DNA from: Bacteroidales bacterium
GTDB lineage: Bacteria; Bacteroidota; Bacteroidia; Bacteroidales; VadinHA17
Reading direction: 5' to 3'
Assembly (NCBI GenBank): GCA_022865305.1
Contig: JALHSP010000088.1
Location: 1 to 64,000, forward strand
DNA length: 64,000 nt
Shown here one piece after another: positions 18,190-52,052 of this stretch. Position 1 is the first letter of the stretch. Each line of letters opens with the position of its first letter. The notes beneath the pieces were generated by a model. It ran no database searches and was not told the origin of the DNA. It worked only from the letters and a program-made list of their open reading frames with translations. Position numbers and translations under genes: made by a program.

Positions 18190-18885
18190 ATGGAGAAGAA
18201 ACTGATAATAGCAATCGACGGGTATTCATCCTGCGGGAAAAGTACATTTGCCAGGGCTATTGCAAAGGAGCTTGATTATATTTTTATCGACAGCGGGGCC
18301 ATGTACAGGGCAGTGACTCTATATTGCATAAGAAGAGGCTTCGTTGGAAAAGGGATATTGAACACTGAAGGAATTATTAACGAACTTAATGATATACATA
18401 TTGAATTTGTCTATAATCCTGATATCCTTGAATGTGAAACATACCTGAACTCCGAGAATGTCGAAAGGGAAATAAGGGGCGTAGAGGTTACTTCTCATGT
18501 TAGCAGGATAAGCCAGATTGCGGAGGTACGTGCCCGGATGGTTGAACTGCAGCGACAGATCGGCGTTTTTAAGGGGATAGTAATGGATGGAAGGGATATT
18601 GGAACAGTAGTATTTCCCGATGCCGATTTAAAGATTTTTATGACAGCTTCTGTTGATATAAGAGCTAAAAGAAGATTTGACGAGCTGATAAACAAAGGAT
18701 TAGAAGTAAATTTTGAAGAGGTCAGGAAAAATATTATTGTCAGAGACATTACAGATGAAAACCGTGACATAAGTCCTTTACGCAAAGCAGACGATGCAAT
18801 AGTACTTGACAACAGCAGAATGACTGTCGAAGAGCAAATGATCTGGGTTCGCCAGATAATTGAAAAGAAAATGTATGGTAGTTGA
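18190..18885 (+). CDS. cmk: Cytidylate kinase
   Basis: CMP/dCMP kinase of 231 residues. The P-loop GYSSCGKST is at the N-terminus, the substrate segment DSGAMYRAVTLY follows, and DGRDIGTVVFPDADLKIFMTAS is the conserved core. C-terminal RDITDENRDISPLRKADDA is also typical. Its last four codons overlap the start of ispH, so translation of the two is coupled. Length and motifs are normal. Confidence 0.96.
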   Translation: MEKKLIIAIDGYSSCGKSTFARAIAKELDYIFIDSGAMYRAVTLYCIRRGFVGKGILNTEGIINELNDIHIEFVYNPDILECETYLNSENVEREIRGVEVTSHVSRISQIAEVRARMVELQRQIGVFKGIVMDGRDIGTVVFPDADLKIFMTASVDIRAKRRFDELINKGLEVNFEEVRKNIIVRDITDENRDISPLRKADDAIVLDNSRMTVEEQMIWVRQIIEKKMYGS

Positions 18886-21804: not shown

Positions 21805-23052
21805 TTAATTTAATGTTGGATCACCAACTCTTCCCATGAATAATATTGTGCCGGTTGAGGTCTCACGGATGAAATAAAGAAACGGATGATTGATTTTGAC
21901 CTCGTTAGTAAATGGCGAAGCAGTGTCTTTAAACTCCACAATTGTCGCAGCAGCAGCTTCGGTACCCTCCTCGTTGGTCTCAATGAATGCCTGATGCAAT
22001 ACTCTGTTTATCATCAGACCCTGATCGCTGATATTGCTGAAGTTGGCCTGGGCAGAAAAAGCGACACCCATACCAAGGTCAATAAGATCATCATTGAGAA
22101 GTCTCTTGTACATATACTTGAACCGTGGCAAGGTCAGATCGACCTCCTGTGTATTACCAGACAGCATATCCATCCAATCCTGCCATACTGAGGGTGTGAG
22201 AGCCTCGGCCACTTCAACAGTAGTCACATTTTCATCAGGTAAAACCACAACCATTGTGAAGTTCCCCTGTCCATAGGGTAATTCAACAATAATTAAATTG
22301 TTGGTCCTGGCAACTTTGAGATTCTCCGTCTGATGCATCATGGGAACATCTTTTGGAGTTGAGGCAGTTACATAAAATGGTTCGTCGTAGGTATCATCCT
22401 TATCGAACTGATATCTCCACTTCCCGTTGAAATAGATGGCATTAATAAGAAGCATAGCCAGTTGAGGATCTAAATAATCCAGCATATCGGTGATCTTATC
22501 ATGTGTCTTTTCTGCAATCCACCCGTTGACAATATCCACTGCATCCGCATCTGTTACGTCGATATTACGCGACTCGGCTTTGTACCATGTTTGAAGTGCC
22601 GTGATAAAAGACTGTTTCACCGTGACATGTTTTTCCACCCATACCGAGTTGGCTATTTCAACTAAAACACGCTTATCAACAGGGACCATCTCAGTCATCA
22701 GCTTAAGGTATGTCTCATTTATTTGCTGAAGGATTTTGTCCTCCAGCCTGAGTGTCTTTCTGATAGCCTCGAATGTCTCCCCTGCAGCACCATTGAGTGT
22801 CATAGAAAGGGCACTGGTAATACTGTACGGAGATATCATTATGTTTTCTGTACCCTTGCCATCGGCAATAACAGGCTTGAAGAGATCAAATGCAAACCTG
22901 TTTGCAGAGTCAATTACCTGCTTTTGATAAACCTCAGTAATAATATTTACCGGGTCACCAGGCAGATCATTTGTACCACTCATCTCACATGAGGTCAGTA
23001 TAACCGATGAGCCTGTTAAGGTTAGGAGTAATCCCCAAATAATATTTTTCAT
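21805..23052 (-). CDS. Serpin-family protease inhibitor lipoprotein
   Basis: Start ATG 23052 (MKNIIWGLLL) gives a lipoprotein signal with lipobox LTSC; the frame begins 33 bases further up. The serpin fold is full length (about 415 residues). Near the C-terminus the hinge EEGTEAAAAT is the small-residue type needed for loop insertion, so the protein should be inhibitory, and INHPFLYFIRETSTGTILFMGRV is the conserved end. The scissile bond lies in FKDTASPFTN; the loop is about two residues longer than in alpha-1-antitrypsin, so the P1 residue is uncertain. A cell-surface shield against serine or cysteine proteases is likely. Confidence 0.92.
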   Translation of the reverse strand: MKNIIWGLLLTLTGSSVILTSCEMSGTNDLPGDPVNIITEVYQKQVIDSANRFAFDLFKPVIADGKGTENIMISPYSITSALSMTLNGAAGETFEAIRKTLRLEDKILQQINETYLKLMTEMVPVDKRVLVEIANSVWVEKHVTVKQSFITALQTWYKAESRNIDVTDADAVDIVNGWIAEKTHDKITDMLDYLDPQLAMLLINAIYFNGKWRYQFDKDDTYDEPFYVTASTPKDVPMMHQTENLKVARTNNLIIVELPYGQGNFTMVVVLPDENVTTVEVAEALTPSVWQDWMDMLSGNTQEVDLTLPRFKYMYKRLLNDDLIDLGMGVAFSAQANFSNISDQGLMINRVLHQAFIETNEEGTEAAAATIVEFKDTASPFTNEVKINHPFLYFIRETSTGTILFMGRVGDPTLN

Positions 23053-23169
23053 GATATAGGTTTTTAGGATATAATTATCAGGCACAAAAATTATACCAAC
23101 GATAAGTCACTTTAAATTTTCCTGTCTGAACAGATTCTTCTTATCTTTATTTTCTAAAATTCCTCCCGG

Positions 23170-26100
23170 ATGAAATTCATCGGAGATTTTCATTTACACT
23201 CACATTATTCACTGGCAACAAGCAAGGAGCTTCGCCCTGATTTCCTCGATTACTGGGCAAGGTTAAAAGGCATAAAAGTGATTGGTTCAGGTGATTTTAC
23301 CCATCCCGGCTGGCTCCAGGAATTACAGGATCAGCTTGAGCCTGCAGAGGAAGGACTTTTCAAACTGAAAAAGGAAAACAAAAAGAAGATCTCTCCTCCG
23401 GTCGAAGAAGATGCCAGTTTTATCCTTACCGCTGAAATCAGCAATATATACAAGAAAAAAGGGGAAGTCAGAAAAGTGCATAATGTAGTTTTTGCTCCAT
23501 CTTTCAGTGTGGTTGAAAAAATACAGAATAAGCTGGCAATCCATGGTTTTAATATTACTTCCGATGGCAGACCGATAATAGGGATGGATAGCAGGGACCT
23601 CCTTGAATTATGCCTGGAAGCTTCCGAAGATATTTTCTTTGTACCCGCACATATCTGGACGCCATGGTTTTCTGTGCTGGGTTCAAAATCAGGATTTGAT
23701 ACTGTAAATGAATGTTATGAAGACCTATCGGCATATATCACTGCTGTCGAAATGGGCCTTTCTACCGATCCGCCGATGAACTGGATGTGCAGCTTCCTTG
23801 ATACATATACATTAATTGCCAATTCGGATGCCCATTCACCGGAAAAGCTGGGACGGAATGCCAATATCTTTGAAACTGACCTGTCGTACAATGGAATTAT
23901 TGATGCCATGAAATCAGGCAATCAAGAGAATTTCCTCGGTACAATAAATTTCTTCCCTCAGGAAGGTAAATATCATTATGACGGTCACAGGAAGTGCGGA
24001 ATCCGCTGGAGCCCAATTGACACATTGCAACATGATGAAATTTGTCCCATATGCGGAAAAAAGATCACCGTCGGCGTAATGAACCGTATCGCCCAGCTTG
24101 CCAACCGGGATAATATTATAGAACGACCAAACCGTCACCCTTTTTACAGTCTGATACCATTAAAAGAAATCTTATCGGAAATAGAAGGTGTTTCGCCTGA
24201 CTCCAATAAAGTGGATCAGCATTATAAACAACTGGTTCATAAAGCAGGTTCGGAGTTTAACATTTTATTACATTTTGATCTTAACCATGTTAAGACAATT
24301 GGCGGAGAATTGTTATGTGAAGCAGTCAGGCGGATGCGAAACAGGGAAGTTCATATACAGGAGGGATTTGACGGGGAATTTGGTATTATAAAAGTCTTCA
24401 GAGAAGGTGAAACCAGAAGTCTCAACCATTCTGAATCTCTATTTAAAGAATCTGAAAGCAGATATTTTGTTGTAAATGCCCCTTGTCCGTTAGTCAGCTT
24501 TGACCTGGAGGCTTTCCGTAAATTAAAACAACAAAAACCGTTGACAGAAGCTGAAGAAACCGGGTCCTTTAAACCGGAAATCCTTACCGGCGAAAGACCT
24601 GCAGGCTTAAATAATGAACAAACAGAATCAGCGGAACATTTTAGCGGCCCGGCAATAATACTGGCTGGTCCGGGAACCGGGAAAACACAAGTTCTGACAA
24701 CCCGCATTGCTTTTTTAATTCAGAAAAGAAATATAAATCCGGGCAGCATTTTAGCTATTACTTTTACGAATAAAGCAGCCAGGGAAATGAAAGAGAGGCT
24801 GGCTCTTATGCTTGATAGCCAGATCCTGAATGATCTCAGAATTTACACTTTTCATTCATTCGGATTGTCGATAATTAAAGAGTATCTCAAAAATTCAGGA
24901 GTGACAGATTACTTAACTGTAATAGATGAAGATGATAAAAGGCAGATCCTGTCAGAAATTAATGTTGACAAATCCATTATTGCTAAAACGAGTGAAAAGA
25001 TATCTGAGATAAAACAATCATTAATCTCTGAAAACCAGGTTGCTGACACAGTCCTTGCCAAAATTTTCAATAAATACAACCATATAATGAGACAATCGAA
25101 CGCATATGATTTTGATGATCTTGTGAGTTTTCCGGTGCAGATCTTTCAGAAGCACCCGGATATCCTGTATGAATACCAAAGAAAAACAGAATGGATACTG
25201 GTTGATGAATATCAGGACATTAACCTCCCGCAATACATGATGATAAGAATGCTGATGTCAGAACCAGACTCAAATCTGTTTGTAATAGGTGATCCCGATC
25301 AGGCAATTTACGGATTCCGGGGAGCTGATGTCAGGTATATTCAGATGTTCAGGGATGATTATAAGGATGCTGCAGTTTTTAAATTGAAGAAAAGTTATCG
25401 CTGTACTGACTCAATACTTAAGGCCTCAGGCAACGTTTTGAAAACAAATCAGAAGTTCCTGGAAGGAGTGCAAAGAGGAGTAAGGATTAAAATATCAGAG
25501 AATGCAATAGATAAAAGCGAGGCTGAATTTGTTGCCCGTAAAATAGAAAAGATGATCGGAGGTATGGGATTCTTTTCTATCGACAGCCAGGTTGCTGAAG
25601 GTACAAAAGACGAAGGAATCGAAAGTCTTTCGGACTTTGCTGTCTTATGCAGGATCAGCAGGCAGATGCCTCCGATAGAAAAAGCATTAAGAGATCATAA
25701 TATCCCTTACCAGAAGATTGGCGAAGATTCAATCCTGAAACAGGAACCTGTTAAAACTATATTGGATGTATACAGGTTTACTTCAAACCCGGGAAATACC
25801 TTTCTGAAATCACGGCTTGTCAAACAAAAAATTATAAGCGAAAAAGGTCTGATGCAATTAGTTGAAATGATCGCGGATAAAAATCTTGTAGAAAAACTGG
25901 AATTTATAGTCAGCAATTACTTCCGGAACCATATTGAGGAGCACAAATTCATGATCACATTTCTGATAGATATAGCAGAACAATATGAAAGTAATGAAGA
26001 GGATTTCTTACAGCACATTCTGCTTGGCACAGGGATCGATTCATGGAAACCAAAAGTTGAAGCTGTAAACCTCATGACCATTCATGCTTCCAAGGGACTG

Positions 26101-26394
26101 GAATTCAATTGTGTATTTATTACAGGTTGCGAAGAAAACCTGATGCCCTATTCACTGTTTGAAGAACAACATGCCGATCCTGAAGAAGAAAGACGGTTAT
26201 TATATGTTGGAATGACCCGTGCGAAAAACTATTTGTTTCTGACAAGCGCTCAGCAACGGTTCTTGATGGGCAGGGAATATTTTCAGAAGAGGAGTCATTT
26301 TCTTGAGGAAATTGAAAAGGAATTAATAGAAACAGAGGTCCCTCAAACAAAAATAAAAGAGAAAAAAGACCGGGAGCAATTAAAATTGTTTTAA
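23170..26394 (+). CDS. Endonuclease Q-like PHP nuclease fused to UvrD/PcrA helicase
   Basis: A 1074-residue two-part protein. Residues 1 to about 410 match the endonuclease Q/PHP family: His8-x-His10, Asp42, Glu89, His104, His161 and Asp220-x-His222 are the metal-site pattern, and Cys276, Cys292, Cys295 with a nearby His form a zinc site. Residues from about 480 are a superfamily 1A helicase: Walker A AGPGTGKT (499-506), DEYQD (679-683), GDPDQAIYGFRG (707-718), HASKGLEF (972-979) and LLYVGMTRA (1010-1018). The C-terminus ends QLKLF, like the sliding-clamp motif. EndoQ cuts 5' of deaminated bases and abasic sites. It is followed after 19 bases by a GH30 gene, an unrelated partner. Confidence 0.9.
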   Translation: MKFIGDFHLHSHYSLATSKELRPDFLDYWARLKGIKVIGSGDFTHPGWLQELQDQLEPAEEGLFKLKKENKKKISPPVEEDASFILTAEISNIYKKKGEVRKVHNVVFAPSFSVVEKIQNKLAIHGFNITSDGRPIIGMDSRDLLELCLEASEDIFFVPAHIWTPWFSVLGSKSGFDTVNECYEDLSAYITAVEMGLSTDPPMNWMCSFLDTYTLIANSDAHSPEKLGRNANIFETDLSYNGIIDAMKSGNQENFLGTINFFPQEGKYHYDGHRKCGIRWSPIDTLQHDEICPICGKKITVGVMNRIAQLANRDNIIERPNRHPFYSLIPLKEILSEIEGVSPDSNKVDQHYKQLVHKAGSEFNILLHFDLNHVKTIGGELLCEAVRRMRNREVHIQEGFDGEFGIIKVFREGETRSLNHSESLFKESESRYFVVNAPCPLVSFDLEAFRKLKQQKPLTEAEETGSFKPEILTGERPAGLNNEQTESAEHFSGPAIILAGPGTGKTQVLTTRIAFLIQKRNINPGSILAITFTNKAAREMKERLALMLDSQILNDLRIYTFHSFGLSIIKEYLKNSGVTDYLTVIDEDDKRQILSEINVDKSIIAKTSEKISEIKQSLISENQVADTVLAKIFNKYNHIMRQSNAYDFDDLVSFPVQIFQKHPDILYEYQRKTEWILVDEYQDINLPQYMMIRMLMSEPDSNLFVIGDPDQAIYGFRGADVRYIQMFRDDYKDAAVFKLKKSYRCTDSILKASGNVLKTNQKFLEGVQRGVRIKISENAIDKSEAEFVARKIEKMIGGMGFFSIDSQVAEGTKDEGIESLSDFAVLCRISRQMPPIEKALRDHNIPYQKIGEDSILKQEPVKTILDVYRFTSNPGNTFLKSRLVKQKIISEKGLMQLVEMIADKNLVEKLEFIVSNYFRNHIEEHKFMITFLIDIAEQYESNEEDFLQHILLGTGIDSWKPKVEAVNLMTIHASKGLEFNCVFITGCEENLMPYSLFEEQHADPEEERRLLYVGMTRAKNYLFLTSAQQRFLMGREYFQKRSHFLEEIEKELIETEVPQTKIKEKKDREQLKLF

Positions 26395-26413: not shown

Positions 26414-27910
26414 ATGTCAAAGTTCTTATTTAAATTAGTTTTGGCTGCAGTAATAATGCTGAAAGCAAGTTCCATTATTGCCCAGGATGATAAACCTGTT
26501 CAGATAGAAGCCTGGGTGACAAACCCTGATCGTACTGCCTTGTTTGCAAGACAGCCTGATAACATATTTTTTTCTGATATGAATAACAATCGTGGTGGCT
26601 CAGTAATAGTCATTGACGATTTACAACAAATGCAGACCATAGATGGTTTTGGCTTTGCTCTTACCGGAGGAAGTGCCGGTCAACTTATTAAGATGAATGC
26701 TGGCGAACGTGCCAGAATACTGAAAGAGCTATTTGCTTTTGATGATAAAAATATAGGTGTTAGCTACCTGCGTCTGTCTATAGGAGCATCCGATCTTAAT
26801 AGTTTTGTTTTTTCTTATAATGATTTACCTGAAGGAGAAACTGATTATGAACTAATAAAATTCAACCTTGCTCAGGACTTAAACGATGTTATCCCGGTAA
26901 TGAAGGAGATACTGGCAATAAATCCGGCAATAAAAGTATTAGGGTCGCCATGGTCAGCTCCGGCCTGGATGAAAACCAATAATAATATCAGGGGAGGCCA
27001 GTTAAAGAAAGAGTGTTATGGAGTTTATGCCTTGTATTTTGTAAAATATATTCTGTCAATGAGAGTGCATGGCATTACAATTGATGCCATTACTATTCAA
27101 AATGAGCCTCTTAATTCCCGTAACACTCCAAGTATGTTCTGGTTTGAAAATGAACAGGCTGATTTTATTAAAAACTATTTGGGACCAGCTTTTAAGAAAG
27201 CAGGTATAAAAACAAAGATTATACTTTTCGATCACAATCTCGACAGACCTGACTATCCCCTGGTTCTGCTTAGCGATCCGGACGTGTCAAAGTATGTCGA
27301 CGGTTCAGGATTTCATAATTACGCCGGAGATTTTAATGCAATGAGCCTTGTTCACCTGGCTCGTCCTGATAAAAACCTGTATTTCACCGAACAAATGGTA
27401 ACTGAAAGGCCAGGTAGTCCGACAATAAATATAACCGGTCCGGTAAAACGTCTTATCCTGGGGGCAACCATGAACTGGAGTAAAAACGTAATATTATGGA
27501 ATCTTGCGGCAGATCCATTAAACGATCCTCATACCGATAAAGGGGGATGCTCCATGTGCCAGGGGGCAATAACTATAGATGGAAACAATGTCACAAGAAA
27601 CGTTGCTTATTATACCATAGCCCATGCTTCAAAATTTGTCCTTCCCGGTTCGGTAAGGATTGTGTCAACCAATAAAGGGGAGAAATCTGTCGCCTTATAT
27701 GAAGACGAACAACGACCAGGGGTTTTCCGTACAGCTCTGATCGAAAATACGGATGTTTTGCCAAATGTGGTATTTAAAACACCTGAAGGAAAAATTGTAC
27801 TGATTGTTGTTAATGATACCTGGTCAACAAATTCATTCAGGATTCAGTACAGAGGGAAATATGCGAGTTTAAGGCTTAATCCGGGAGCAGCAGGAACATA
27901 TGTGTGGTAA
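26414..27910 (+). CDS. GH30 family glycoside hydrolase, secreted
   Basis: A 498-residue protein with a signal peptide ending near IIAQ. The GH30 barrel is clear: MQTIDGFGFALTGGSA opens the domain, GSPWSAPAWMK follows, the acid/base is Glu231 in TIQNEP, and the nucleophile is Glu326 in YFTEQM. A small C-terminal beta domain is formed with the N-terminal strands. Family members act on glucosylceramide-like beta-glucosides, beta-1,6-glucans or related sugars; the exact substrate is not readable. The next gene encodes another secreted polysaccharide enzyme, so the two may attack the same glycan, perhaps a beta-glucan. Confidence 0.92.
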   Translation: MSKFLFKLVLAAVIMLKASSIIAQDDKPVQIEAWVTNPDRTALFARQPDNIFFSDMNNNRGGSVIVIDDLQQMQTIDGFGFALTGGSAGQLIKMNAGERARILKELFAFDDKNIGVSYLRLSIGASDLNSFVFSYNDLPEGETDYELIKFNLAQDLNDVIPVMKEILAINPAIKVLGSPWSAPAWMKTNNNIRGGQLKKECYGVYALYFVKYILSMRVHGITIDAITIQNEPLNSRNTPSMFWFENEQADFIKNYLGPAFKKAGIKTKIILFDHNLDRPDYPLVLLSDPDVSKYVDGSGFHNYAGDFNAMSLVHLARPDKNLYFTEQMVTERPGSPTINITGPVKRLILGATMNWSKNVILWNLAADPLNDPHTDKGGCSMCQGAITIDGNNVTRNVAYYTIAHASKFVLPGSVRIVSTNKGEKSVALYEDEQRPGVFRTALIENTDVLPNVVFKTPEGKIVLIVVNDTWSTNSFRIQYRGKYASLRLNPGAAGTYVW

Positions 27911-28021
27911 ACTTGATGTTACATCTGTAATACCAAAGGAAATTTTGTAATTAAATATTCTGAAATATCTAATTTAAAAATCATTACTTTTCTCTAACGA
28001 ACTTATATTATTTTGAACCAT

Positions 28022-31021
28022 ATGAAAAAAATTGCTTTTATTATACTGATAATTTTCTTAAACAGTTACATTATCAATGCATTTGCTGCTATAAAACCTG
28101 GCAATTCATTCTATCCCCGGAAACCTGATGATCCCGAAGCGGTTTTTTTTATATCGGAGAATTTCGCAATTACAGCTGACGGTAAGACTGATGTTTCTGA
28201 AGAGCTTCAAAAAGCAATAAATCTATTAAAAACGGAAAGGAACTTTGGAATCCTGTTTATTCCAGAAGGTACTTACATAATATCGAAAACAATATACATT
28301 CCGGCAGCAATAAGGTTAATCGGATATGGTAAAAACCGGCCGGTATTTATCCTTAAGAAGAACTCTCCGGGTTTTCAGATTTCAAATCCTGACGATAAGG
28401 GAAAAGCATCATATATGTTTTGGTTTACCAGTGGTATTACCGAACCCGGGAAACCTGTCCGGGATGCCGGAGCCGGTACATTTTACAGTGCAATGTCGAA
28501 CATCGACTTAAGAATTGAAGATGGAAATCCTGCAGCTGTGGCTTTACGAACACACTTCGCTCAGCACAGTTTTGTGTCTCACTGTGATATTCATATTGGT
28601 AACGGTAAAGCCGGTCTGTTCGACATCGGAAATATGATCGAAGATGTGAAATTTTATGGAGGTGAATATGGTATTTATACTACAAAAGCTTCTCCCGGAT
28701 GGCAGTTTATGATGCTTGACACTTATTTTGAAGGTCAGCGCATAACAGCTATTAAAACGCATGAGGCTGGTTTCACCATCGTTCGAATGAGTGTAAAGAA
28801 TGTTCCGTCAGCCATACTGGTAGATGAGAATTACTGGGAAAAGCTTTTCATGGAGGATTGCCGGTTCGAGAATATTGCAGGACCTGCTATCGAAGTCAGT
28901 AATGAAGCTAACGCTCACATGCAGGTAAACATCAGGAACCTTATCTGCAGGAATGTTCCGACGCTGGTTCGGTATCCAAAACTTAATATCAAAACCACTG
29001 CTCCTGCAGATATTTACCGTGTGAAACGGTTCATCTACGGTCTCCAGATGGATGATTTAGACGTGACAGCTCAAATTAAGACAACTTACGAAACCGAAAT
29101 ACTTAAATCACTTTCACCTGAATCAATTTCTGACATTCCTAAACTCCCTGAAATGGGAACATGGGTGAATCTTAGATCGCTTGGTGCAAAAGGCGATGGA
29201 CTGACTGATGACACAAAAGCCATTCAGGATGCTGTTGACAGATATCCAACTATTTACGTTCCGCAAGGTTCATACCGGGTAACTGAAACACTGAAGCTTA
29301 AACCAAATACTGTTTTAATCGGTCTGCATCCAATGGCAACCCATTTTGCAATTGCTGAAGCTGCTCCTGCATTTGGAAGCTTTGGAGCCCCAAAACCATT
29401 GATTGAGGCACCGCAGGGCGGAACAAATATCATTACCGGGATTGGTCTTTATACAGCTCAGAGTAATTACAGGGCAGTGGCGTGTAAATGGATGGCCGGT
29501 GAGAAATCGATGATTGATGATGTGAAGTTCATTGGTGGTCACGGAACAATGCGTCCGGGACCAAAGGTTCCCTGGAAATGGGAGGAACTACAGCAACAGC
29601 AGGGTCAACCAGTTACTGCAGGTTCCGAGCAACTATGGGGCACACAATACTGGAGCCTGTGGGTGACTAATAACGGAGGAGGTATTTTCAAAAATATCTG
29701 GACTGCAAGTACTTTTGCCATTTCAGGCTTCTATGCCTTGAATACCAGCACACGGGGACGTATTTATGCAATGTCGGTCGAACATCATGTACGCAACGAA
29801 GTACGTTTTAAAGACGTCTCCAACTGGAAGGTCTATGCCCTTCAGCTTGAGGAGGAGAGCAGGGAAGGTCCGGAATGCCAGCCTCTGGAAATAGAGAAGT
29901 GCACTGACATGGTCTTTGCAAACCTTTATTTGTTCCGTGTCATCCGTTTAAAAGTACCATACCCCTATTCGGTAAGAACCTGGGATTGTTCGAATCTTGA
30001 AATACTTAATATTCACAATTACAGCCAGATCAAATACACAACCGACAATCCCTTGTACGACATAAACACCGGGATAGAGGTTCGTCCTGTTGAGATGGCA
30101 CGGTTGTTCATAAGCGGTAATACTCCAAAACTCAGTTCAGTTAACTCAATTAATCAGGTTCAGCTTCTGGCTAAAGGATTTGAGTTTGTAATGGGATTAT
30201 GTAACGATTCAAAAGGCAATGTTTATTTCTGTGAACAGCGTATGAAACGTATATATAAATGGTCGGTTGAAACCAATTCTCTTAGCCTGGTTGCTGATTT
30301 CCCATGGGAACCTCTTTCACTGGCATGTGATTCAAAAGACAATCTGTTAGTCGTCTTCAGGTACAATCCGCAACCCGGATACATAATAAACGGAGAACCT
30401 GAAAGGTACACTAATCCACCGGATGCATCAGGAACCTCATTCAGCGCCTGGGGAAATTCAGGATTCGGGACACTGGTATATGCTGTAGATCCTGAAAATC
30501 CGGAAGAGACTATAAAGAAGCTGGAAAAAATTCCTATGGGGAGTATCAACAATATTCATAAAGCGCTTTATCCATCAAACCGCTGGCGCGATTCTCACGA
30601 TTTCAATTCCATTACGATAGCCAGAAATAGTGAATGTTTTGTTGCTCCTGATGGAAAAACCATTATTCCGGTATGTTATGACCTGGCCCGCTCCTGTGCA
30701 CTGGCAGAGGCATTTCCTTATAAGCCTGTATATATAGCAGATGAATATGACAAACGCACTGTGAAACTGGATGTTGATTCCCAAGGATACGTCTCAGATC
30801 TGGTCTATTTTGCCGAAAAAGGTGAATTCAGTTCAGTTCCTGATTACCAGGGTAATGTGTATGTAGCTGATGGTGAAATTTACGTCTTCGGCCCTGACGG
30901 TAAACAGATTACCATGATCCATGTTCCGGATCGTCCTTCAACTATCGTTTTCGGCGGTAAGGATGGTAAAACACTTTTCATTACCGGACGATCTGTTTTG
31001 TTCAGATCAATTATAAATTAA
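28022..31021 (+). CDS. Secreted double beta-helix protein with C-terminal propeller, GH55-like
   Basis: The start is ATG 28022; the TTG nine bases up gives only three extra residues. After the signal peptide the 999-residue product has two pectate-lyase-3-type openings, FAITADGKTDVSEELQKAI near residue 55 and LGAKGDGLTDDTKAIQDAV near 390, each starting a right-handed beta-helix. Paired helices of this kind occur in GH55 beta-1,3-glucanases, so that is my best guess, not pectin cleavage. From about residue 715 an NHL/SMP-30-like propeller begins (GLCNDSKGNVYFCE, LACDSKDNLLVVF). I cannot name catalytic residues. It follows the GH30 gene by 111 bases. Confidence 0.72.
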   Translation: MKKIAFIILIIFLNSYIINAFAAIKPGNSFYPRKPDDPEAVFFISENFAITADGKTDVSEELQKAINLLKTERNFGILFIPEGTYIISKTIYIPAAIRLIGYGKNRPVFILKKNSPGFQISNPDDKGKASYMFWFTSGITEPGKPVRDAGAGTFYSAMSNIDLRIEDGNPAAVALRTHFAQHSFVSHCDIHIGNGKAGLFDIGNMIEDVKFYGGEYGIYTTKASPGWQFMMLDTYFEGQRITAIKTHEAGFTIVRMSVKNVPSAILVDENYWEKLFMEDCRFENIAGPAIEVSNEANAHMQVNIRNLICRNVPTLVRYPKLNIKTTAPADIYRVKRFIYGLQMDDLDVTAQIKTTYETEILKSLSPESISDIPKLPEMGTWVNLRSLGAKGDGLTDDTKAIQDAVDRYPTIYVPQGSYRVTETLKLKPNTVLIGLHPMATHFAIAEAAPAFGSFGAPKPLIEAPQGGTNIITGIGLYTAQSNYRAVACKWMAGEKSMIDDVKFIGGHGTMRPGPKVPWKWEELQQQQGQPVTAGSEQLWGTQYWSLWVTNNGGGIFKNIWTASTFAISGFYALNTSTRGRIYAMSVEHHVRNEVRFKDVSNWKVYALQLEEESREGPECQPLEIEKCTDMVFANLYLFRVIRLKVPYPYSVRTWDCSNLEILNIHNYSQIKYTTDNPLYDINTGIEVRPVEMARLFISGNTPKLSSVNSINQVQLLAKGFEFVMGLCNDSKGNVYFCEQRMKRIYKWSVETNSLSLVADFPWEPLSLACDSKDNLLVVFRYNPQPGYIINGEPERYTNPPDASGTSFSAWGNSGFGTLVYAVDPENPEETIKKLEKIPMGSINNIHKALYPSNRWRDSHDFNSITIARNSECFVAPDGKTIIPVCYDLARSCALAEAFPYKPVYIADEYDKRTVKLDVDSQGYVSDLVYFAEKGEFSSVPDYQGNVYVADGEIYVFGPDGKQITMIHVPDRPSTIVFGGKDGKTLFITGRSVLFRSIIN

Positions 31022-49763: not shown

Positions 49764-52052
49764 TCAATACGGATCCACATCAATTGCTATTCTAAGCGAA
49801 GAAGCTCCTTTAAACATTTCAAGCCGTTCAATTGATTCAAGGATAAGTTGCCTGCTTTTTGCGCCAGAAATCTCCTTTTCGATTTTTATGAGGATGGTTT
49901 TAATGTACCATGACTGTATACGCGAAATAAGCGGGTATTCCGGCCCCAGTATTCTTTTCCCGAAAAGTGTTTTCAGGTCACCTCCAAGTATACCTGCATA
50001 ATTGTTTAACTGAGCCCTGTCCTTATGCTTTAAGCTGATCCTTATCATTCGGCAGAAAGGGGGATAATTGAAAGTTTTTCTCTCTTCAGCCTGCATTTTA
50101 AACATGCTTAAATAATCATGCCGTAATACCATCCTGATAATTTTATTTGCAGGATCTGCAGTCTGAATTATTACTTTTCCCTGTTTTTGTCTTCGTCCTG
50201 CTCTTCCGCTTACCTGTTCGAGGAGTTGAAAGCTTCTCTCATGTGCCCTGAAATCGGGGTAATTTAAAAGGTTGTCAGCATTGAGTACTCCGACCACTGT
50301 AAGATTTTCAAAATCTAGGCCTTTGGAGATCATTTGTGTGCCAATAAGAATATCTATGCGTTGTTCTTCAAAAGCCCTGATTATTTTATGAAATGCGTTT
50401 TTATTTCTTGTCGTATCCTGGTCCATTCTTGCAACACGTGCCGATGGAAACACAATTTTTATTTCGTCTTCAATTTTCTCAGTTCCAAATCCCCTTGTAA
50501 CCATTCCCGTTGAATTACAGCTTCCGCACCGTGATGGCAAACTGGTTGTAAAACCGCAGTAATGACAGACCAGTTTATTAATCCCTTTATGATATGTCAG
50601 GTTAACTGCACACTGAATGCATACCGGTATCCAACCGCATTCCGAACATTCTATATATGGAGAAAAACCTCTCCTGTTCTGAAAAAGAATTACCTGTTCA
50701 TTTTTGCCAAGAGCTTCTTCAACAGCATGAAGCAATTCCGGTGTAAAATGTGAAACCATAAGCCTTTTTCTATATGCTTCACGAGTGTTTGCCAGGATGA
50801 TTTCCGGTAGTTTTATTAACCCGTATCTTTCCTTCAGTACTGCGAATCCATATTTCCCCTGAACCACATTGTTATAACTTTCAACAGAGGGAGAAGCTGA
50901 GCCTAGCAGAGTTTTTGCCTTATGGAGTCCAGCCAGAATTATTGCAGAATCCCGTGCGTGATATCTTGGAGCCGGATCGTGCTGCTTATATGAACCGTCA
51001 TGTTCTTCATCTATAATGACCAGTCCGAGGTTACTGAATGGCAGAAAAATTGAGGACCTCACCCCAAGTAATAACCGGTAACCGGTGCAGGGATTCTCAT
51101 CTGCGACTTTCTTCCAGATTTCAACCCTCTCCTGATCGTTAAACCTGGAGTGATAGATGCCGGTAACATTTCCGAAGTGTTTCTTTAACCTTAATATTAT
51201 CTGTGATGTCAGCGCTATTTCAGGCAGCGTATAGAGAACCTGTTTCCCCTTTTTCAGCTGTTCCTCAATGAAATGAATATATATTTCCGTTTTACCGCTC
51301 GAAGTCACTCCGTGAAGTAACGTAATTTCTTTTCCTTTAAATGCATTACATATTGAATTATAAGTAATTAACTGAGCTTCACTCAATTTTCTTAAAGGTT
51401 CAGGAATGTTTTCGGTATTTTTCAGTCTACCCACCTCTATTGAAACAGCTGTTAATATGCTTTTTACCGATAAAACTTCAATAATGCCGGGAGAGGATTC
51501 TGCTTCTTTCAGTAACAAAGATTTCCTGACTGGCTTTATTTCCATTCCTGAGGCATATCCTGTCAGCCTGAGATAAGCAGAAAGCGTTTCATATTGTTTT
51601 GGTGCTCTGGACAGGCTATCCAGAATCTCATTTAATTTCTTTTCGGTAAACTCTGATGCCAGTTTAATAAATGACTCTTCTTTTGGTTTGTATTTTTCAA
51701 TAACAGGGACACTGGTTTCTCCCTCCGGGAAAAATGCTGCCGGCATTGCTGCTTTCATCACTTCTCCCTCGCTGCACATATAATAATCAGAAATCCACTG
51801 CCAGTGTTTTAACTGTATATCATTAACAACAGGCGAGGTATCAATTACATCTTTTACAGGTCTTATATTCTCTATGCCGGGAGTATCGTTATGCAGTCTG
51901 CAGACTACACCGGAATAGAGTTTTTTATTGCCAAACTGGACCAGGACTCTTTTACCTTGTTTTATTGTTTCAGAAAATTCATCAGGGATTAAATAAGTGA
52001 ATCTTCCCCTTATTGCCAGCGGTAAAATAATATCTGCAAACTTGAAAGTCAT
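49764..52052 (-). CDS. priA: Primosomal protein N', replication restart helicase
   Basis: The 762-residue protein has the N-terminal DNA-binding domain (TFKFADIILPLAIRGRFTYL), Walker A GVTSSGKTEIY, DEEH in IDEEHDGSYKQ, eight zinc-binding cysteines (CSECGWIPVCIQC and CHYCGFTTSLPSRCGSC), and GTQMISKGLDFENLTVVGV with the C-terminal helicase motifs. PriA reloads the replisome at stalled forks. Its length and motifs are normal. GC-rich repeats flank both ends. Confidence 0.96.
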   Translation of the reverse strand: MTFKFADIILPLAIRGRFTYLIPDEFSETIKQGKRVLVQFGNKKLYSGVVCRLHNDTPGIENIRPVKDVIDTSPVVNDIQLKHWQWISDYYMCSEGEVMKAAMPAAFFPEGETSVPVIEKYKPKEESFIKLASEFTEKKLNEILDSLSRAPKQYETLSAYLRLTGYASGMEIKPVRKSLLLKEAESSPGIIEVLSVKSILTAVSIEVGRLKNTENIPEPLRKLSEAQLITYNSICNAFKGKEITLLHGVTSSGKTEIYIHFIEEQLKKGKQVLYTLPEIALTSQIILRLKKHFGNVTGIYHSRFNDQERVEIWKKVADENPCTGYRLLLGVRSSIFLPFSNLGLVIIDEEHDGSYKQHDPAPRYHARDSAIILAGLHKAKTLLGSASPSVESYNNVVQGKYGFAVLKERYGLIKLPEIILANTREAYRKRLMVSHFTPELLHAVEEALGKNEQVILFQNRRGFSPYIECSECGWIPVCIQCAVNLTYHKGINKLVCHYCGFTTSLPSRCGSCNSTGMVTRGFGTEKIEDEIKIVFPSARVARMDQDTTRNKNAFHKIIRAFEEQRIDILIGTQMISKGLDFENLTVVGVLNADNLLNYPDFRAHERSFQLLEQVSGRAGRRQKQGKVIIQTADPANKIIRMVLRHDYLSMFKMQAEERKTFNYPPFCRMIRISLKHKDRAQLNNYAGILGGDLKTLFGKRILGPEYPLISRIQSWYIKTILIKIEKEISGAKSRQLILESIERLEMFKGASSLRIAIDVDPY

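Follow-up and report, generated by a model that had tools for sequence, protein, structure and literature searches.

A Bacteroidales gene joining an EndoQ-like nuclease to a UvrD-type helicase: a candidate clamp-tethered enzyme of DNA repair

The subject of this analysis is a single gene that joins a nuclease resembling endonuclease Q (EndoQ) to a helicase of the UvrD type, and that lies in a stretch of 64,000 nucleotides (the window; positions 1 to 64,000 of contig JALHSP010000088.1, assembly GCA_022865305.1) from a Bacteroidales genome of 4.98 Mb that is 99% complete. A preliminary description, made from the letters of the window, had read the gene as an EndoQ-like nuclease joined to a UvrD/PcrA helicase, and this is borne out by an intact open reading frame (ORF) over exactly the nucleotides listed in Table 1. 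Residues 4-412 of the protein align with PfuEndoQ (5zb8; E 1.5e-51), and the helicase part (about residues 477-1056) aligns with PcrA (1pjr) at 1.2e-85, as well as with UvrD and Rep. Pfam returns UvrD-helicase (3.3e-74, residues 480-732), UvrD_C (1.1e-41) and, weakly, PHP_C, so that annotation of the protein as a helicase only is likely. Ninety-five EndoQ loci, the window included, were compared: 61 hold two-domain ORFs visible from end to end, in 12 a contig end or a frameshift interrupts the gene after the helicase has begun, two are frameshifted within EndoQ, four are two-gene forms, 13 carry EndoQ alone and three at contig ends (L062, L067 and L096) are undecided; the 12 cut loci enter the EndoQ tree and stand outside the 61. 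Compared with its nearest relative (L043, 75% amino-acid identity), the window gene has a ratio of nonsynonymous to synonymous substitution rates (dN/dS) of 0.06 overall, with dS near saturation; the EndoQ part has the lowest value (0.048), followed by the helicase (0.072) and by the linker as the least conserved segment (0.119). A misassembly or chance ORF is ruled out by the 61 two-domain ORFs together with this purifying selection.

Table 1. Features of the fusion gene in the window (aa, amino acids)
Feature	Positions	Strand	Remarks
EndoQ-UvrD fusion gene	23170..26394	+	one ATG-started uninterrupted ORF, 1074 aa
EndoQ part, aa 1-415 (PHP catalytic domain, zinc ribbon, C-terminal domain)	23170..24414	+	PfuEndoQ 5zb8; TIGR00375
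Glu89 = Pfu E76, catalytic zinc ligand	23434..23436	+	invariant in 73/73 fused and 17/17 unfused
His104 = Pfu H84, catalytic zinc ligand	23479..23481	+	invariant in 73/73 fused and 17/17 unfused
His161 = Pfu H139, zinc ligand and base discriminator	23650..23652	+	invariant in 73/73 and 17/17
Gly196 and Ser198 = Pfu G169 and S171, T/A-excluding pocket	23755..23763	+	invariant in 73/73 and 17/17
Zinc ribbon His273-Cys276-Cys292-Cys295	23986..24054	+	residue alignment
Linker, aa 416-476, with SESLF at aa 421-425	24415..24597	+	QxxLF site of many other fusions
SF1A UvrD-type helicase, aa 477-1056	24598..26337	+	Pfam UvrD-helicase, UvrD_C; PcrA 1pjr
Helicase motif I, GPGTGKT	24667..24687	+	GPG[TSA]GKT in 61/61 fusions
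Helicase motif II, VDEYQD	25201..25218	+	61/61 fusions
Helicase motif III, GDPDQAIYGFRGA	25288..25326	+	same form in 61/61 fusions
Helicase motif V, TIHASKGLEF	26077..26106	+	60/61 allowing small variants; absent in L090
Helicase motif VI, ERRLLYVGMTRA	26188..26223	+	60/61 fusions; absent in L090
Putative beta-clamp-binding motif QLKLF, aa 1070-1074, last five residues	26377..26391	+	QxxLF consensus

In PfuEndoQ, residues E76, H84 and H139 are zinc ligands that cannot be replaced by alanine without loss of activity; H139, G169 and S171 exclude T and A from the base pocket (PMC8307549). The counterparts of these residues in the window protein, and D6, H8, H10, D220 and H222 of its EndoQ part, are invariant across an alignment of 73 fused and 17 unfused relatives, on which the residue counts for this part are based, and the earlier statement that the N-terminal half keeps the PHP metal residues stands. 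The companion statement, that it keeps the zinc cysteines of EndoQ, holds for all but the first of the four Pfu cysteines, whose place is taken by His273; this gives a His-Cys-Cys-Cys ribbon in which the CPICG segment is kept. Among the fused rows Cys276 and Cys292 occur in 73/73, and His273 and Cys295 in 72/73 each. As a histidine stands at the first Pfu cysteine position in 72/73 fused and also in 16/17 unfused bacterial forms, it probably marks a bacterial variant of the ribbon and no loss. It could be supposed that the EndoQ part does not cut and merely guides the helicase to lesions, but with catalytic residues invariant in 73/73 and dN/dS lowest in precisely this part, such a role is barely plausible.

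The helicase part of the window protein carries motifs I, Ia, II, III, IV, V and VI, as had been claimed for the C-terminal half. Across the 61 two-domain ORFs, counted with strict patterns unless stated, motif IV is present in 61/61, Ia in 57/61 and V in 53/61, and the fusions that fail the strict Ia or V patterns hold conservative variants, save for a Gemmatimonadetes fusion ORF (L090:4389-7514, plus strand) that has lost motifs V and VI and the clamp motif near its end, as if frameshifted. Motif III commonly reads GDP[DN]Q in fused forms, whereas ordinary helicases commonly have GDDxQ. The ordinary helicases used for comparison are the 21 of 600-900 aa among 30 helicase loci from 16 EndoQ-bearing genomes, some of them without a fusion; the other nine loci, outside the length limit, are fused, paired, partial or odd frames, including L129 (907 aa), whose plus-strand frame has no clamp motif. 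The interval between motifs IV and V spans 225 residues in the window protein, against a median of 243 in fused and 270 in ordinary helicases (n=21), and this excludes a whole loss of the 2B subdomain. Within that interval an insert containing GG was found by regular expression in 48/61 fused and 1/21 ordinary proteins. The GIG motif, part of the 2B-duplex contact thought to autoinhibit SF1A monomers (PMC13238157), is present in 16/21 ordinary helicases but in only 8/61 fused and 0/4 paired ones, and is absent from the window helicase. Its loss suggests that the motor is activated by the EndoQ part. Partners such as RepD and MutL activate SF1A monomers, whose translocation runs 3'-5' (PMC13238157), and by analogy with the family the window motor is predicted to run 3'-5' as well.

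A feature that escaped the preliminary description is the C-terminal QLKLF, which fits QxxLF, the more general form of the clamp-binding consensus QL[S/D]LF (PMC12309361), and through which the protein may bind the beta sliding clamp. Sixty-three fused C-termini could be compared, namely those of the 61 ORFs and the helicase ends of the two frameshifted loci (L041 and L042), and 55 of them, the window's included, have QxxLF in the last 15 aa, or 60 in a relaxed form; shuffling of the last 60 residues would yield 0.28 of 61. The motif was found at the C-terminus of 0/21 of the ordinary UvrD-family helicases defined above. Thirteen of the 17 unfused EndoQs (13 alone, four paired) also carry QxxLF, and stand-alone EndoQs mostly end in it at the site that corresponds to the EndoQ/helicase junction of the fusions. 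At that junction, 39 of 73 fusions have QxxLF, 17 (the window, with SESLF, among them) LF alone, 16 neither and one no anchor for alignment, where shuffles would give 0.8 QxxLF in 72. The motif-bearing sequences are akin, and these counts are accordingly not counts of independent events. Archaeal EndoQ is bound and stimulated by PCNA via a C-terminal PIP box, and a clamp motif in bacterial EndoQ homologues was already stated in 2016 (PMC4858679). The doubled motif, and its location at the end of a fused helicase, we have not seen in print.

Relatives across many phyla occur as fusions, as adjacent genes or as EndoQ alone. At four loci (L058, L071, L088 and L092) EndoQ and UvrD-type genes are adjacent; in the first three the UvrD-type gene follows EndoQ on the same strand, with anything from a 4-base overlap to a 90-base gap, and encodes 507-554 aa, while the second frame of L092 is longer, with an uncertain start. 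Each of the four paired helicases has QLTLF, QMTLF, QLKLF or QLELF at its end or within seven residues of it. The fusion probably arose from two neighbouring genes, each ending in a clamp motif. In two loci of one Bacteroidota family (L041:7252-10514 and L042:7634-10875, both minus strand), the fusion gene is split by a frameshift inside EndoQ; as the places differ, a programmed frameshift was dropped as an explanation, and decay or assembly error may account for the splits.

The preliminary description had proposed a phylogenetic comparison with stand-alone EndoQ and PcrA, and its outcome is divided, with one clade for the fused EndoQ parts and a helicase origin that is possibly multiple. In an EndoQ tree of 91 rows, all 73 fused sequences fall in one clade of 80 rows (SH-aLRT 90), which also holds four stand-alone and three paired rows, and the other stand-alones and the L092 pair lie outside it. 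Eight changes between fused and not fused are needed on this tree, compared with a mean of 16.7 after shuffling; 38 of 88 inner branches are weak. We take the tree to reflect one early fusion followed by splits and losses, but it may also fit other histories. A helicase tree, rooted at the midpoint and built from 34 of the 61 fused, the four paired and the 21 ordinary helicases, places the ordinary ones on one side of a branch (SH-aLRT 85).

These groupings bear on whether the two activities serve one reaction. It is conceivable that EndoQ and helicase are merely delivered together to the clamp and act at separate lesions or stages, with deaminated bases as the target of the nuclease and the motor clearing proteins or unwinding stalled forks. 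Stand-alone EndoQ with no helicase nearby bears the clamp motif too, the linker is long and weakly conserved, and SF1A translocases have many roles (PMC13238157), all of which would suit such co-delivery. However, both fused and two-gene forms have been kept across phyla, the paired helicases group with the fusion helicases and apart from the ordinary ones (L092 loosely), and the loss of GIG hints at activation by the EndoQ part; independent tasks are, on balance, unlikely.

Taken together, these data allow the construction of a model in which the protein, tethered to the clamp, cuts on the 5' side of uracil, hypoxanthine or an abasic site and peels off the damaged strand for long-patch resynthesis, a model to which we assign a probability of roughly two in three. 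It draws on the ORF itself, the active-site and pocket residues, the helicase and clamp motifs, the two-gene forms and purifying selection. The model proposes that the C-terminal QLKLF holds the enzyme on the beta sliding clamp, with a second clamp contact, probably, at the domain junction in many relatives. The EndoQ part would flip out the lesion, cut the bond 5' of it and leave a 3'-OH; for EndoQ itself, such a cut leaves a 3'-OH and a 5'-phosphate, and flap or exonuclease routes have been proposed to follow (PMC4357722). The EndoQ part would then activate the built-in motor at the nick, where the helicase may load on the intact strand and run 3'-5' past the lesion, so that the damaged strand is displaced as a 5' flap. 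The choice of strand would follow from the polarity of SF1A motors, since a 3'-5' motor on the intact strand passes the lesion, whereas one on the nicked strand would leave it behind. Finally, a polymerase could take over the 3'-OH from the clamp and resynthesise a long patch, with a flap nuclease and ligase completing repair. The earlier idea that one polypeptide nicks and unwinds thus agrees with the active site, pocket, helicase, conserved linkage and family polarity. Its extension, that the polypeptide replaces a multi-protein excision pathway, does not survive, as the reaction would still depend on a polymerase, a flap nuclease and a ligase and every fusion-bearing genome searched has a UDG-superfamily gene. 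Within this model the fusion is proposed to be a chromosomal housekeeping repair enzyme. The wider proposition, that many bacteria possess a glycosylase-independent, clamp-coupled long-patch excision, carried out by one polypeptide with up to two clamp sites in which EndoQ activates a motor released from 2B restraint, is one on which we regard the odds as even.

Several observations weigh against this model. The window protein matches TIGR00375 (1.1e-43, aa 6-407) with 150 bits, below the curated cut-off of 326.6. That cut-off is reached by 0/395 Bacteroidota genomes and by 0/247 genomes of the phylum of Desulfonema magnum, short stand-alone frames included, and it therefore does not delimit EndoQ in these bacteria; the protein is called EndoQ here on the strength of its residues and full-length alignment. 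The PcrA equivalog model TIGR01073 gives 414.9 bits against a cut-off of 911.2, and the window helicase is no PcrA orthologue; the genome separately encodes a PcrA-like protein (751 aa), which itself scores 770.5 bits. Strict QxxLF is absent from 8/63 fused C-termini, and in L053, L069 and L090 the relaxed form is absent too; the junction motif of the window itself has decayed to SESLF. The four stand-alone EndoQs inside the fusion clade imply that the helicase may be dispensable, with the reservation that L121 is possibly a frameshifted fusion and that L102 stops 72 bases short of where its stretch ends. On the helicase tree 6/34 fused and 1/4 paired sequences (L092) lie on the ordinary side of the midpoint root, and a second helicase origin may be involved. 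Distribution is patchy: TIGR00375 finds 13 strong matches (E < 1e-30), or 15 with two weak ones, in the 395 Bacteroidota genomes, the 13 comprising 11 single frames of at least 1004 aa and two frames split by frameshift within EndoQ. Among 60 genomes near the window nine match, three of them strongly (the window and G427 with fusions, G433 with EndoQ alone), and in the genus of the window 2/36 genomes have a strong match, the window included, many genomes being incomplete. Lastly, as UDG-superfamily genes accompany the fusion in the same genomes, the need for such a pathway is unclear, and most other close neighbours of the fusion, judged by reading without scans, seem unrelated.

The UDG superfamily is represented in 23/25 genomes searched and in 21/21 of the fusion-bearing ones, in two of which the fusion is frameshifted. 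Replacement of base excision repair (BER) is thereby ruled out, and the enzyme would add to that pathway. The two genomes without a match, G433 and G461 (the latter of 0.9 Mb), both carry a stand-alone EndoQ with no helicase nearby. In Geobacter argillaceus a UDG-superfamily gene (L091:5176-5997, plus strand) stops 3 bases before the fusion gene, a spacing that suggests an operon of the two. In another Geobacteraceae genome (L108) the gene immediately upstream is for a NUDIX hydrolase, and yaaA is a close neighbour in a Lachnospiraceae locus (L104). A dnaN-like gene lies within 5.5 kb of the fusion in seven Desulfobacterales/Deltaproteobacteria loci (L072, L073, L080, L093, L098, L099 and L106), its identity being confirmed by Pfam in one of the seven; in L073, L080, L098 and L106 a gyrB-like gene, named from its sequence, is present as well on the opposite strand. 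This nearness may reflect nothing but a shared map position. No conserved operon partner was found beyond the separate UvrD genes. That result also bears on a possible role in strand marking for mismatch repair, in which uracil or a base analogue in the nascent strand would be nicked on the clamp and the motor would open the strand for excision; the clamp motif and UvrD-type motor would fit such a role, and MutL activates UvrD (PMC13238157), but a conserved partner gene was not found, and we consider the idea very improbable.

Repair of the organism's own chromosome, as the clamp-tethered model proposes, also has to be set beside anti-phage defence, in which phage DNA with uracil or hypoxanthine in it would be attacked by the nuclease and opened by the helicase, in loose parallel with GajA and GajB of Gabija. 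GajA is a nuclease of the OLD/TOPRIM type. The fusion resembles GajB in pairing a UvrD-type helicase with a nuclease, and differs in that its nuclease is unrelated to GajA and that the 10 flanking window ORFs scanned offer no defence context; they contain no match to GajA and no defence system, and one of them (ORF 18190-18885) gives a 24-bit match to VakA. The helicase part matches PADLOC GajB at 3.2e-91, and patchy distribution would be in keeping with defence, but GajB models would match UvrD-type helicases through kinship. There is likewise no sign of a mobile or phage origin: 72,556 plasmid and 50,697 phage records gave no match, nor did viral contigs when scanned twice with pattern-seeded searches. 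Bacterial EndoQ has been suggested to act against viruses (PMC8307549). Matches in the phylum of Desulfonema magnum, named Thermodesulfobacteriota by NCBI, are nonetheless widespread, occurring in 162/247 genomes (three weak), and on this evidence a defence function is distinctly unlikely. Frame length, used as a proxy for fusion in this phylum, is at least 850 aa in 60, at most 520 aa in 86 and between these in 4 of the 150 matches listed. The GTDB name of this phylum is Desulfobacterota. Among the best 80 of at least 582 relatives, which supply the 80 named-genome loci, fused forms occur in Bacteroidota, Thermodesulfobacteriota, Chloroflexota, Gemmatimonadota, Spirochaetota, Planctomycetota, Bacillota (Lachnospiraceae), Elusimicrobiota and others; because these loci were selected as the top matches to an alignment of eight fused rows and one unfused, the ratio of fused to unfused is biased.

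Several known systems can be set beside the fusion. Archaeal EndoQ (PfuEndoQ, TkoEndoQ, MacEndoQ) shares the PHP domain, zinc ribbon and C-terminal domain over the full EndoQ length, the catalytic and discriminating residues as in Pfu, and a clamp motif at the C-terminus, but it has a PCNA PIP box in place of QxxLF, and the Pfu protein aligned here lacks a helicase and has a four-cysteine ribbon. Stand-alone bacterial EndoQ (Bacillus pumilus in print; Nitrospirota and others here) is the same nuclease without the helicase and, for the homologues discussed in PMC4858679, has a beta-clamp motif. UvrD, PcrA and Rep share motifs I-VI and both Pfam UvrD domains; the fusion departs from them in its in-chain nuclease, shorter IV-V interval, usual loss of GIG and C-terminal clamp motif. 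The proposed reaction has the geometry of RepD with PcrA on rolling-circle plasmids, where PcrA, an SF1A motor, is recruited and stimulated by the nickase and opens the duplex from a nick whose 3' end is left for the polymerase (PMC4797284); that system, however, is sequence-specific, attaches covalently to the 5' end, uses separate proteins and serves replication and not repair. The preliminary description had held the function to be undescribed; searches of the open-licence papers of PubMed Central indeed found no description of an EndoQ-helicase fusion, although the stand-alone enzyme of bacteria, with its clamp motif, has already been published (PMC4858679). EndoQ is said to be limited to a few bacterial genera (PMC4357722), in contrast with the 162 matching genomes of one phylum. 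The fusion and two-gene forms name a candidate step after the cut, helicase unwinding, and a candidate platform, the sliding clamp, and make the EndoQ pathway testable in culturable bacteria such as Geobacter. If the model is correct, a nickase and an SF1A motor would be combined within a single chain, and if the wider proposition holds, a further route would exist beside BER and UvrABC repair, common in the phylum of Desulfonema and Geobacter.

A scan for promoters and terminators returned sites no commoner than in shuffled sequence. Upstream the fusion gene adjoins a divergent gene for a bacterial serpin (21805-23085, minus strand; Pfam Serpin, 3e-112), and 19 bases past its end begins a gene of glycosyl hydrolase family 30 (26414-27910, plus strand), followed by one for a pectate-lyase-like protein of 1002 aa with an SMP-30-like C-terminal region (28013-31021, plus strand). 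The primosomal helicase PriA is encoded about 23 kb from the fusion (49764-52052, minus strand).

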